IMG/VR virus record: IMGVR_UViG_3300001782_000005
Span: 124,001-188,000 of that record
DNA from: a virus
Strand: one strand, 5' to 3'
Length of the DNA stretch: 64,000 nucleotides
Below are positions 14,081 through 25,299 of this stretch, piece by piece; the first letter of the stretch is position 1, and the number at the start of each line of letters is the position of its first letter. Position numbers and translations under genes: made by a program. The notes beneath the pieces were generated by a model that was given only the letters and a program-made list of their open reading frames with translations, was not told where the DNA came from and did no database searches.

Positions 14081-14575
14081 TTACTTTAACCTAGTTAAAT
14101 AGACCTCTTCTCCTCTTCTAGAAAACCCACCTTGTATTCTCCACCCACTCTTTCCCAAACCGGGAACCACATCAGTTACAAATTTAAAATCAGCTGAATC
14201 TAAAAAGGGTCTTCCAAGAGGACTCGAGGGTGTTGCTTTTATATGTCCCTCAGCTTTAAATTTTCCAAACTTTAATAGCTTATATGTTGGATGTCTAGAG
14301 TGCTTCTTCACCCAGTCATCATATGACTTGGCATTTGGATGTATTATTCCCACATCTAATTTTTGTCTCTTTTTTACTTCTCCTGCACTTGAGGGTTTCT
14401 GTTTCTCACGAGTCTCGATTTCAAAAGGACCTCCTTCAAATAGACCAGTATCTAAATCAAATATAAAACCAAAATTATTTAATGGCCGATCATGCTCAAA
14501 ATATATAATTCGGCCGCTCGCTCTACCAGCGAAATCTTCTCTCAGAGTAGTCAGATAGCTACCCAATAACTTCAT
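14081..14575 (-). CDS. Hypothetical virion-region protein (164 aa)
   Basis: ATG at 14575 after AAGGAG. Begins MKLLGSYLTTLREDFAGRAS, a variant of the YLxxLQ N-terminal motif. The body is basic, and its C-terminus is rich in Gly and Phe (PGLGKSGWRIQGGFSRRGEE). It directly precedes the spike gene, so it is probably a baseplate or tail protein. No domain assigned. Confidence 0.5.
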   Translation of the reverse strand: MKLLGSYLTTLREDFAGRASGRIIYFEHDRPLNNFGFIFDLDTGLFEGGPFEIETREKQKPSSAGEVKKRQKLDVGIIHPNAKSYDDWVKKHSRHPTYKLLKFGKFKAEGHIKATPSSPLGRPFLDSADFKFVTDVVPGLGKSGWRIQGGFSRRGEEVYLTRLK

Positions 14576-15476: not shown

Positions 15477-15842
15477 TTACCTTCCGGCTCTTGCACGATA
15501 CATTGATAAATTCTGATTTAATTTTCTCAGTTTCTCCTCCTGACGAGCAATCTTTTTATTCATCATTTCACGGCATTTATTTGGATTATTCGCTTGAGTG
15601 CATTTGGACATACTCCTCCTCATTTCACCAATCAATCGCCTCATACCAGTTATCTTTACTGAGGTATCACAAATAGAGGCTTCTAATCCTTCCAGTCCTT
15701 CACAAGCTCTCTGAGCAACTGAAAGGTAATCTTGATATAACTTTCTTGCTGCAGAACTTAACATTGACGCAGTATACGCACTAACTCTTTCGGATAAACC
15801 CTTTTGAAGATAAATCAAGTAACTCTCAAGTAATTTATTCAT
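15477..15842 (-). CDS. Helical protein with N-terminal YLxxLQ motif (121 aa)
   Basis: ATG at 15842. The N-terminus MNKLLESYLIYLQKGLSERV is the clearest copy of the shared motif. The remainder is charged helix with four Cys (RACEG, SICDTS, SKCTQ, NKCRE) and a basic coiled-coil tail (KKIARQEEKLRKLNQNL). The Cys layout, two of them in NPNKCREM/KCTQANNP, resembles the end of the next upstream protein (NPELCVGK). This suggests the two are distant relatives or partners. Confidence 0.5.
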   Translation of the reverse strand: MNKLLESYLIYLQKGLSERVSAYTASMLSSAARKLYQDYLSVAQRACEGLEGLEASICDTSVKITGMRRLIGEMRRSMSKCTQANNPNKCREMMNKKIARQEEKLRKLNQNLSMYRARAGR

Positions 15843-19279: not shown

Positions 19280-20200
19280 CTACATAAGAAAGACGGGTGC
19301 CTTATCTTGTTCTTTCTTCTCTTTGTCTTTTATATATGGTAATTTCATTTTCGTTGAATCTTTCTCGCAATATTCTTTATAAGGACAATATTTACACTGA
19401 TCGCTAGTTGCCCCTATAGGGTCAGGAACAATATTTTCCGAAATTGATTTTTGGAGAAGAAGTGAATTGTCAAGGAAGGATTTTGCTAGATTGTTATCCA
19501 TCGGAAGGTCGAACGGAACAACTCTCTTCAGACTTCTAGGAACATAAACAAGGGTAATCGTATGAATTTTATATTTATACTCATTATTGAGAATATAAGC
19601 ATAGATCAACCCCTGGTTATAATCCTTAATTTGATAAGTATTTTTAAATTTCTTATCATCAACCGATTTAATATCAATCAAAAATCCTTCCCTAATACCA
19701 TCAACTCTTCCCTTAACTTTATACTTCTCACTAATTACCGTCTTCTCAACTTCTTGAAAATCATAAAGATTTTCAATAAAATCGTGGATCGCTCCTCCAA
19801 CATGGTTAATTAGTGATAAATAAGCAAATCTATATTGCTCATTTATATCTATTGAGTATCTTTTCCTCGTATAATAAACTTTTCTAATACAAATAACCAG
19901 TTCACTAACCCAAACATACGGCCGATCATAACTTTGTAATCGTTTAAATTCGTCAATCAGTTTTGCTCTCATAAGGGATTCAAATTTAAGTAAATCAAAA
20001 CCCTCAGATTGTGGAAATGGTTTTAAACGAGGAATGTCCGAGTGAATATTAGTTGAACATTCCTCAATCAACTTCTTAGTCTGTTTTTCAACTAATTTTC
20101 TATCTTGAGTCTTAGCATCCTCTTGCGGACTAACTCCACCTTCAAGAAAATGTTCTAGATAATCGAGTAATCTTGAATATTCATGGTCAAGTTTAGACAT
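19280..20200 (-). CDS. Cas4/RecB-like nuclease (PD-(D/E)xK with Fe-S cysteines)
   Basis: Likely DNA exonuclease. The PD-(D/E)xK core is visible: H139 in GGAIHDFIE, D167 in GRVDGIR, D176-x-K178 in IDIKSV, and Q196/Y200 in YNQGLIYAY. One Cys near the front (C104, VICIRK) and three at the back (C269, C272, C278 in CKYCPYKEYC) match the four-Cys iron-sulfur cluster of Cas4 and AddB-type nucleases. No CRISPR array or other cas gene is in the window, so recombination or DNA end processing with the nearby UvsX is more likely than CRISPR adaptation. The ATG at 20200 overlaps the upstream gene by 8 bases. Confidence 0.85.
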   Translation of the reverse strand: MSKLDHEYSRLLDYLEHFLEGGVSPQEDAKTQDRKLVEKQTKKLIEECSTNIHSDIPRLKPFPQSEGFDLLKFESLMRAKLIDEFKRLQSYDRPYVWVSELVICIRKVYYTRKRYSIDINEQYRFAYLSLINHVGGAIHDFIENLYDFQEVEKTVISEKYKVKGRVDGIREGFLIDIKSVDDKKFKNTYQIKDYNQGLIYAYILNNEYKYKIHTITLVYVPRSLKRVVPFDLPMDNNLAKSFLDNSLLLQKSISENIVPDPIGATSDQCKYCPYKEYCEKDSTKMKLPYIKDKEKKEQDKAPVFLM

Positions 20201-20750
20201 CTTCTAAAATTAGTATAGCCTGCTCAACCAAGCTATCCCTAAGAATCTTATAAGCATCTTCAATAATTCTTCCTTCCCACTCATTCATCTTCTTATACTC
20301 AGCAGATTCAGAGATAGTCTTAGCGATCAGTAGGTTGTCAACAGCAAGGCGATAAGCCTTTTCCCTAATCTTCGTCTTTACTAATTGTTCAATGTCAACA
20401 TTTTTCTGTTCTTCAATGGTTTCTCTCAACTCAGCTTTGATGTCTGCTCTTCCCTTACTTGAGGTCACCAGATTTTGACTATTTTCTCTAGCAACCTTGG
20501 CGCTTTCACGTGCCATCTTTGTGAGCACCTTAGTATTGATGGACTCAGCAACTGCTTCAGGTTGATGACCTACCAGTTTGTATAACTCAATCAACACCGA
20601 GAGCAGAGCACCTTTGATTGACGTATATTCATCAATCAAACCTTCACAGCAAACTTCTTTCAATTTGCTCGCCGGTTTACCAAAGAGAACATAATCTACG
20701 GCGTAAAAGTTTTCAAGTATCCTAATTTTTGACTCTTTACTTAGGTTCAT
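20193..20750 (-). CDS. Hypothetical helical protein (185 aa)
   Basis: ATG at 20750 after AGGAGG. Entirely helical and charged, with a basic middle (KMARESAKVARENSQNLV) and Ile/Leu heptads towards the C-terminus (ILRDSLVEQAILILEDV). It lies between the KH-domain gene and the Cas4-like nuclease and overlaps the nuclease. It may be a partner of either; no family recognised. Confidence 0.5.
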   Translation of the reverse strand: MNLSKESKIRILENFYAVDYVLFGKPASKLKEVCCEGLIDEYTSIKGALLSVLIELYKLVGHQPEAVAESINTKVLTKMARESAKVARENSQNLVTSSKGRADIKAELRETIEEQKNVDIEQLVKTKIREKAYRLAVDNLLIAKTISESAEYKKMNEWEGRIIEDAYKILRDSLVEQAILILEDV

Positions 20751-20767: not shown

Positions 20768-21088
20768 TTAATCTGTCTCACAAACTGGTTCTCTGGTGTG
20801 AGGTTCATCCTCAATCAACTCCAAGGAAACCTTCCTTGTATCCTGACAGAAATGTGTATTTTTAATAGCCAAAGCAATAGTTTTTAATGAATCTATTGTT
20901 CTTCCCTTTTTACCTATTATCTTGCCAAAATCTTCCTTCTTTACTTTTATTTGAACAATAATAGATTTAGTTGAAGTTACAATACTAATTTCAACTTCAT
21001 CTGGATTATCAACTAATCTTTTGGCCGTCTGTGTAACAAACTCCTCTAGCATATTTTTCATCTGTTGAACAGTATTATTAATTGCCAT
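20768..21088 (-). CDS. KhpA-like KH-domain RNA-binding protein
   Basis: Single KH domain. After an N-terminal helix and the phrase LVDNPDEVEISIV come a beta strand (IIVQIKV), the signature EDFGKIIGKKGRTIDSL with the GxxG loop at about residues 59-62, and a C-terminal helix. This is the layout of bacterial KhpA (YlqC), an RNA-binding protein of about 80 residues that pairs with KhpB; here it has about 25 extra residues. ATG at 21088 after GGAGGAG. It sits upstream of recombination genes. It may bind phage or host RNA, or interfere with host KhpA/KhpB. That role is inference; the domain call is firm. Confidence 0.8.
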   Translation of the reverse strand: MAINNTVQQMKNMLEEFVTQTAKRLVDNPDEVEISIVTSTKSIIVQIKVKKEDFGKIIGKKGRTIDSLKTIALAIKNTHFCQDTRKVSLELIEDEPHTREPVCETD

Positions 21089-21182
21089 CTTATATCAGCT
21101 CCTCCAATTGGCCAAACTCGTGTGAACTGGTGGCATCCAATTTTAATTTTGTTCTAAATCTAAACAAGTATTAGTTGTCTAA

Positions 21183-22439
21183 CTAAAAAACTTTCGGATT
21201 ATATGCCTCAATTATATCCCTTTGAATTGCATCCTTAACTGCTGCATCAAATGCTTTCTTGAAATCACCATTCTCCATATATAACTGAGTTGCATCTTTT
21301 GTTCTAAATTTCTTTTCTGGTAATGAAGTAAGATAATTCCATGCTCCAGAGTTTAATCTCTTAGTCTCCTTCAAAAATTCATAATTAGTCCAGAAATTAC
21401 TAAAACCTTTAACAAAATCTCCAACTAACTCAATCTCAACATTGGGAGGAAAAAGTTTATTCTTTACACATTTCACACTCGCCTTTATACCTTCAAAACC
21501 ATACATCTCAGGTTTAAGAGCACCTTTAACTTTCATTTCTAAAAGTTGAAAAGCGTTGAACTTCAAAACATTACCACCTGGCATATCTTTATGAGAACTC
21601 ATAAACCTAAGGTCTCTTGGAGTCTGAAATTGACCCATCTGTAAAACATCACGAAGTTGATTAACAGCAACAAGGCATATATTATAAGTTCCAATTTTTG
21701 ATACATACTTAGGTATAAGAATAGAAAATAAACGTGCTCTATATCCAATGACAGAATTTGGATCCTCTGCCTCCCTTTCTTTAATACTAAGCGTATTTGC
21801 AATAGAATCCCATACAATAAATGACGGTACACTAACAATTTTCTTCTGATGTTTAAAGATACATAAACCCTCAATAAATCTAAACACTTTTTCAACTGTT
21901 ATATCAGTATAGGGTTTTATCATTGGATTCCGAACTCCAAGGTTCGCCAATCTTATAGTTGTTGTTGCCTCCTCCGAATCGAGATATGATGCCAATAACT
22001 TACCTCTATAAATTCTTTGAGCATTACCTTGTGCCTGCATTGCAAGCATAGACTTACCACTACCGGGCTGACCAACTATAATATTTAATGATCCAACAGC
22101 AAACCCTCCCCCCAGAATAGCATCTAAAATATCAATACCAGTTGGAATAACTTGCTTTAGACCAGTATCCTCTGTTATCTCAACTTTCTGCTCCAGAAAT
22201 ATATTAAATTCCTTATATAACATCACTGCTTCTTCTTCAATAGATCCAATTTCAGGTTCGCCAGGAGCAGGAGGTTCTATAACGTCGGGTGGACTTGGTG
22301 GAATAGAGGATATATCTGGAGCGACCTCACCATCAATCTTTACACTCTCCATAACTTCTTTGAGATCAACTTGCTCAACCTTTTGGTCAGCTTGCTTTTC
22401 CTCTACATCTTCTATAACTTCATTGTTTTCCTCTGACAT
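21183..22439 (-). CDS. uvsX: UvsX/RecA-family recombinase
   Basis: Strand-exchange ATPase for homologous recombination and repair. ATG at 22439 after AGGAGGG. Residues 1-70 are an acidic, Pro-rich extension (SSIPPSPPDVIEPPAPGEPE) not present in typical UvsX. The Walker A is GQPGSGKS (123-130), Walker B is FIVWDS (about residue 205), and a RecA-type loop with NQLR follows (VAVNQLRD). About 418 residues against 390 in T4 UvsX, the excess being the N-terminal tail. It neighbours KH, Cas4-like and small cysteine genes in one minus-strand run. Confidence 0.85.
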   Translation of the reverse strand: MSEENNEVIEDVEEKQADQKVEQVDLKEVMESVKIDGEVAPDISSIPPSPPDVIEPPAPGEPEIGSIEEEAVMLYKEFNIFLEQKVEITEDTGLKQVIPTGIDILDAILGGGFAVGSLNIIVGQPGSGKSMLAMQAQGNAQRIYRGKLLASYLDSEEATTTIRLANLGVRNPMIKPYTDITVEKVFRFIEGLCIFKHQKKIVSVPSFIVWDSIANTLSIKEREAEDPNSVIGYRARLFSILIPKYVSKIGTYNICLVAVNQLRDVLQMGQFQTPRDLRFMSSHKDMPGGNVLKFNAFQLLEMKVKGALKPEMYGFEGIKASVKCVKNKLFPPNVEIELVGDFVKGFSNFWTNYEFLKETKRLNSGAWNYLTSLPEKKFRTKDATQLYMENGDFKKAFDAAVKDAIQRDIIEAYNPKVF

Positions 22440-24900: not shown

Positions 24901-25299
24901 TTATTTCTCCTTGCCTTTAAAAAGTAAGTATGTCTCACCTTTTGTATCTTTAAATACTGACAAAAAATGATATATCCCTTTAATTTTCCTCCCCTTAAAA
25001 TCAACTACTATGTGCCTTTTTGGTTCATATTTTAAAATTACACAACTCCCTCCATCCCATTTTTTTAATGTCCCTGCACCATAACCAGTTTTGATTTCTC
25101 CAGTAAATAATGCTTCTTCCTCAGTATGATCGTGAGTCCGGGTTACCATTACTCGAACTGCCTCTTTAGTTGGGATTTCTTTTCTAGATGCAAAGGATAT
25201 CCATTTTGTACCCCTAGGTATTTTAAAGCGAATATCATAATGAAGACCAGCCTTTTTGGCCCTATGTTCTATTACTACAAATTTGCTACTTACTTTCAT
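24901..25299 (-). CDS. Stand-alone LigD-type 3'-phosphoesterase domain
   Basis: Resembles the phosphoesterase domain of bacterial non-homologous end-joining ligase LigD, which trims 3' ribonucleotides and phosphates. Visible hallmarks: FVVIEHRAKKAGLHYDIRFK (His12, His20, Asp22, Arg24), a catalytic-region His in RTHDH (56/58), Glu68 in FTGEI, and the YGAGTLKKWD segment (73-82). No ligase, polymerase or Ku gene is near. ATG at 25299 overlaps the ruvC stop by 14 bases, and nrdJ follows two bases later, so it is co-expressed with repair and nucleotide genes. Probable DNA 3'-end repair enzyme. Confidence 0.75.
   Translation of the reverse strand: MKVSSKFVVIEHRAKKAGLHYDIRFKIPRGTKWISFASRKEIPTKEAVRVMVTRTHDHTEEEALFTGEIKTGYGAGTLKKWDGGSCVILKYEPKRHIVVDFKGRKIKGIYHFLSVFKDTKGETYLLFKGKEK

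Follow-up and report, generated by a model that had tools for sequence, protein, structure and literature searches.

A KhpA-like KH-domain protein kept beside uvsX in a phage clade: a candidate RNA regulator

KhpA is among the most widespread bacterial RNA-binding proteins, and its function is poorly understood. RNA binding by bacterial KhpA occurs in vivo (PMC12456014). In S. pneumoniae, Arg59 of KhpA has been modelled pointing into the RNA cavity, and pairing of KhpA with KhpB (EloR/Jag) uses KhpA Ile61 and EloR Leu239; the I61F substitution abolished self-interaction while pairing with EloR remained, and with I61Y self-interaction was lost and EloR pairing strongly reduced (PMC6403258). Phage-made proteins acting on mRNA have been described, and they are comparable to the protein reported here in the way they work only, namely T4 RegA, a post-transcriptional regulator with an RRM-type rather than a KH fold (PMC7824862), and ChmC/Imp6, which has affinity for phage mRNA and is made by nucleus-forming jumbo phages that encode RNA polymerases (PMC13282480). 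KH domains go unmentioned in a survey of 224 jumbo phages (PMC7824862) and in a 2026 review (PMC13282480), and a literature search, with most subscription journals outside its reach, found no paper on a phage KhpA.

The window, that is, the whole stretch of 64,000 nucleotides analysed here, spans bases 124001–188000 of a 277,131-base virus record and has a GC content of 37%. The KH gene and its neighbours are arranged as follows.

19280–20200, minus strand: Cas4-like PD-(D/E)XK nuclease gene, downstream of p185 (PF01930 and PF12705 over cut-off)
20193–20750, minus strand: p185, the next gene after KH, encoding an all-alpha protein of 185 aa (follows the KH gene in the clade)
20768–21088, minus strand: KH gene, encoding a phage KhpA-like, predicted KH-II protein of 106 aa (PF13083, 68.4 bits; 24-member phage subfamily; AF2 pLDDT 86.5)
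21098–21105, minus strand: ribosome-binding site GGAGGAGC of the KH gene (GGAGGAG, ~9 nt upstream of the start)
21183–22439, minus strand: UvsX-like recombinase gene, upstream neighbour of the KH gene (phrog_97 UvsX-like, E=6e-48)

The KH reading frame starts with ATG, and its translation contains LVDNPDEVEISIV followed by EDFGKIIGKKGRTIDSL, the two stretches on which the original prediction of a phage-encoded, KhpA-like RNA-binding protein had been based; the frame carrying this signature was confirmed where it had been placed, and its minus-strand orientation can now be added. The gene had also been described as standing between UvsX and a Cas4-like nuclease, which holds on the UvsX side but not on the other, where the p185 gene intervenes. 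Its phage origin is supported, with the gene located in a phage block (UvsX, RuvC-like, ribonucleotide reductase, Cas4-like, and baseplate-like genes) of a 277-kb virus record that encodes two multisubunit RNA polymerases, comprising two beta-like and two beta'-like genes outside the window (G000:C1:81080-87010 and 113878-121317). Two PF00562 matches were also detected in each of 8 other KH-bearing records searched and in one sister record, and the same two-polymerase arrangement characterises jumbo phages that have both a virion and a non-virion RNA polymerase (PMC7598289). Shine-Dalgarno-like sites precede most KH genes of the clade. Comparison with the ortholog on contig L001 (84% identity, dN 0.10 against dS 0.63) places the protein under purifying selection. 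Synonymous divergence in the KH gene was lower than in its neighbours in one pair (pS 0.43 vs. 0.56–0.73) and other pairs were inconsistent; an overlapping element is not claimed. An Rfam search of the window gave no matches, and no conserved RNA structure was predicted in the leader between uvsX and KH.

We are very confident that the protein belongs to the KhpA/KhpB family, and it falls on the KhpA rather than the KhpB side. Pfam PF13083 (KH_KhpA-B) matches it at 68.4 bits, where the cut-off is 32.1 (E=5e-19), and matches all 24 subfamily members, and the nearest solved structure, both by sequence and by profile, is KhpA 7xqc (E=2e-13). A NusA-type or DNA-binding KH group, which had been considered as the result that would speak against a KhpA assignment, was not recovered: the NCBIfam NusA-type models scored far under threshold (nusA_arch 25.1 vs. 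74.35; NF006258 18.4 vs. 243), as did, less widely, Pfam KH_1 (18.8 vs. 21.5) and KH_2 (16.2 vs. 22). No significant PHROGs match was obtained for the window protein or for any of the 24 subfamily members. Like bacterial KhpA (YlqC), it has a single KH-II domain, a GxxG loop, an LVDxPxxV start, a hydrophobic residue at the dimer position, and a size close to the bacterial 75–110 aa; it differs in lying outside the rpsP-khpA-rimM-trmD order found at most bacterial loci checked, in an alpha3-beta3 segment four residues longer, in a Lys for the near-invariant Arg59, in a fixed Lys76 and an LEDE tail, and in missing all NCBIfam KhpA-type equivalog cut-offs (PRK01064 69.7/85, PRK00468 63.6/106, PRK02821 53.3/106). 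With KhpB/EloR/Jag it shares the KH family model and a fold match (9lrg), but the one-domain phage protein is without Jag-N or R3H, and in the KH-domain tree the KhpB proteins branch separately (support 99). The phylogeny proposed at the outset groups the phage subfamily as one set among KhpA sequences (SH-aLRT 88, not a starred branch), apart from KhpB, in a tree of 88 columns and 137 rows that is otherwise weakly resolved and that, with few bacterial phyla sampled, singles out no bacterial donor.

Scans with UvsX and p185 alignments yielded 23 further KH-bearing contigs (L001/L117 counted once), and in all 24 related contigs the KH gene is placed between uvsX and p185. The uvsX–KH spacing is usually 41–146 nt, with another gene intervening in 4 contigs; in L122, L125, and L141 the inserts are cysteine-rich ORFs resembling homing-endonuclease insertions. 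At the uvsX locus of the 12 sister contigs used in the UvsX tree the KH gene is absent, and in 5 of these p185 and further block genes are recognisable. The 24 KH-bearing contigs form one clade in that tree (support 100/98), with one change reconstructed in all bootstrap trees, and distances among the KH proteins correlate with those among the UvsX proteins (Mantel r=0.62, 0/5000 permutations). Under the outgroup used, the most economical history is a single gain without loss. One sister that is KH-less at uvsX (L139) carries a standard KhpA-like gene far from uvsX (L202), perhaps a separate gain.

KhpA-like genes are also found elsewhere among viruses, with >80 viral contigs recovered by a pattern scan; of the 80 retained from it, none has the ribosomal neighbourhood of bacterial khpA. 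Clear phage settings are HSP20-KhpA-HU, ParB/methylase-RuvC-KhpA, portal-MuF-KhpA, and gp147 of the cultured Tunturiibacter phage Tunturi_5, a distant cousin. These genes (the HSP20-KhpA-HU lineage, L036/L038, L040, L042, and Tunturi_5 gp147) resemble the present one in their single domain and non-ribosomal neighbourhood but, unlike the phage clade, nearly all keep the 24-residue segment and Arg59, and their neighbours differ. The L044–L096 group is a large-phage lineage with the order DUF1360-HSP20-KhpA-(HNH-like ORF)-70 aa-HU, and a PF00562 RNA polymerase match was absent in the 3 HSP20-lineage records searched. A match in Listeria phage LM 4-11-1 was rejected as a phage gene and taken as bacterial DNA because rimM and trmD adjoin it, and a group among Patescibacteria-type sequences (around L063–L114) was left out as phage evidence since those contigs may be bacterial.

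Comparison of the 24 clade members with 118 bacterial and 78 other viral KhpA sequences separated what the phage clade has kept from what it has changed, including at three places in the gene.

20903–20914, minus strand: GxxG loop codons (G59 K60 K61 G62), the expected RNA-backbone contact (both Gly conserved)
20876–20878, minus strand: Ile71 codon, equivalent of S. pneumoniae KhpA Ile61, a dimer contact (assigned by the spacing R-x5-[KR]-T-I)
20840–20860, minus strand: NTHFCQD codons, region of a 4-residue subfamily insert between alpha3 and beta3 (segment-length comparison)

Both glycines of the loop, Gly59 and Gly62, are invariant in all three sets (24/24, 118/118, and 78/78), and position 60 is Lys or Arg throughout the clade (24/24). 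Position 71 is likewise hydrophobic, being I or L in 23/24 clade members and L, I, or V in 118/118 bacterial proteins. The segment from Gly62 to beta3 (G62–L89), by comparison, measures 28 aa in 24/24 clade members; in 114/118 bacterial and 76/78 other viral proteins its length is 24 aa. At position 69, the equivalent of Arg59, the window protein has Lys, as do 20/24 clade members in all, whereas the bacterial (117/118) and other viral (78/78) sequences have Arg. Lys is invariant in the clade at position 76 (24/24), which in bacteria is occupied by A, S, or G; position 73 is mostly Leu, where bacteria have polar or small residues; and the LEDE tail is conserved in the subfamily. On this comparison, the elements expected to hold RNA and form the dimer have been retained, and it is the end of the dimer helix that has been rebuilt. 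A KH type II fold is predicted by the AF2 model (pLDDT 86.5; H2-25 E33-38 E42-49 H51-58 H60-79 E86-93), whose Foldseek matches were ribosomal S3 KH domains, T. thermophilus KhpB (9lrg), and the Era KH domain.

Upstream of the gene lies a conserved motif.

21141–21155, minus strand: candidate phage-RNAP promoter AGAACAAAATTAAAA, 67 nt upstream of the KH start (conservation, non-coding enrichment, AR9 likeness)

The form AGAACAAAWWWWAAA, small departures allowed, occurs 43–71 nt upstream of the KH start in 21/23 other contigs (the exceptions being L134 and L136), or 22/24 contigs counting the window, and in 3 of the 4 contigs where another gene has been inserted it still lies directly upstream of KH. 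In the 277-kb record, 15/42 sites of AGAACAAA are non-coding, where non-coding DNA makes up 7.6% of the record (P ~2e-7), and motif sites precede large virion-type genes, replication genes, and others. The AACA part agrees with the AR9 late promoter consensus, A(-11)ACA-(6N)-UA/G, although the start-site part is not an exact match (PMC7598289). Judged by the motif, this is a candidate phage promoter, probably similar to the late ones of AR9. A sigma-70 promoter scan scored below the shuffled mean and was set aside. A like motif precedes p185 in sister phages lacking the KH gene, which suggests that the KH gene was inserted behind a promoter already in place.

Taken as a whole, the account we moderately favour is that the KH protein is a dimeric RNA-binding protein, mainly a phage homodimer, by which transcripts are tuned in mid or late infection; its core, that the protein binds RNA as a dimer, is considered likely. 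An ancestral KhpA-type gene would have been acquired once by a jumbo-phage lineage, from a cellular or viral source, and would have landed just downstream of an existing phage promoter, where it came to head a unit that includes p185. Its single KH type II domain would dimerise via helix alpha3 and hold single-stranded RNA with the GxxG loop. In the middle or late phase of infection the protein would bind phage transcripts, and perhaps those of the host, and adjust their stability or their translation; it would act as an RNA chaperone or regulator, chiefly in homodimeric form and not as a substitute for host KhpA. The steering of phage RNA raised in the original prediction would fit this anatomy. 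We infer the RNA ligand, the homodimer, and the regulation of transcripts, as well as the timing, the last from the promoter motif. The position of the gene beside a recombinase gene is a counterpoint to an RNA role, and the hydrophobic residue conserved at the dimer position would fit a heterodimer as well. A bolder proposal, which we regard as unlikely, is that KhpA has become a private RNA-binding system of the phage, with a dimer helix so altered that pairing with host KhpA/KhpB is lost, acting (perhaps with p185) on phage-RNAP transcripts; if true, it would amount to a post-transcriptional regulon of the transcripts made by these jumbo phages' own polymerases.

The altered copy in the phage clade suggests a private regulator of RNA after transcription. 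Jumbo phages that encode RNA polymerases may have post-transcriptional controls dedicated to them, a kind of regulation with few known examples. A single uptake, retained in 24/24 sampled contigs and accompanied by defined residue changes, also amounts to a natural experiment on KhpA, in which the kept residues could point to what KhpA must do to RNA and the changed ones to what sets its partner, and the KhpA-like genes in several other phage contexts broaden the question.

Among rival roles, which we rank as host KhpB, then UvsX, then p185, the first is that the phage protein replaces host KhpA as the partner of host KhpB (EloR/Jag), redirecting or blocking the KhpA-KhpB regulator and giving the phage control of host RNA or envelope growth. 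We consider this doubtful. The residue used for pairing in S. pneumoniae has its I/L equivalent in 23/24 clade members, and KhpB was not found in the nine KH-bearing records searched (possibly fragmentary), since each has exactly one PF13083 match and no R3H. However, alpha3 and its end are remodelled in the clade (Lys76 and the 4-residue insert in 24/24, mostly Leu73), which suggests a changed partner surface, the fully kept GxxG would be unnecessary for a pure decoy, and the candidate promoter is of the type found before virion and replication genes, not evidently an early one. Poisoning of the host KhpA-KhpB pair, raised in the original prediction, becomes less likely on the same evidence of a remodelled dimer helix, GxxG in 24/24, and a late-type promoter motif, together with no evident early takeover block.

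KH domains can also bind single-stranded DNA. In a second rival role, which we hold to be improbable, the protein would be a recombination or replication accessory that binds single-stranded DNA or R-loops beside UvsX, as a UvsY-like mediator. The fixed position downstream of uvsX in 24/24 contigs, the RuvC-like and Cas4-like genes in the same region, and the RuvC-like gene followed by a KhpA gene in L042 are consistent with such a role. Nonetheless, the whole block is syntenic, and closeness to uvsX is accordingly weak evidence; the two genes are separated by another in 4 contigs, in 3 of which the motif stays with KH, sister phages have uvsX and p185 without KH, and other phage lineages place KhpA beside HSP20 and HU or portal genes. 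Neither p185 nor a 148-aa neighbour protein has a UvsY match, and a UvsY identity was rejected for both (hhalign probability vs. T4 UvsY, 0.2% and <=0.1%).

The third, that KH and p185 serve together as an RNA-protein component in assembling the virion or in translating the baseplate genes downstream in the KH-p185 unit, is held to be highly improbable. The genes lie <= ~50 nt apart or overlap in nearly all clade contigs, baseplate-like genes come next, and a like promoter motif precedes p185 in sisters, but p185 is present without KH in sister phages and is without a recognisable function or structural homolog (AF2 pLDDT 91; no PDB relative by fold and no consistent PHROG or Pfam match).

Several other features of the record were observed alongside the KH locus. 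A stand-alone LigD 3'-phosphoesterase domain protein is encoded at 24901–25299, beside the RuvC and ribonucleotide reductase genes. Several unrelated proteins have in common an N-terminal stretch of the YLxYLQE type (14081–14575, 15477–15842, and ORFs o178, o349, o367, and o399–o401), reminiscent of the capsid-targeting leaders that a prohead protease cleaves. Outside the window, at G000:C1:36283-41805, five proteins starting with DFVTNSSS constitute a multi-copy family.
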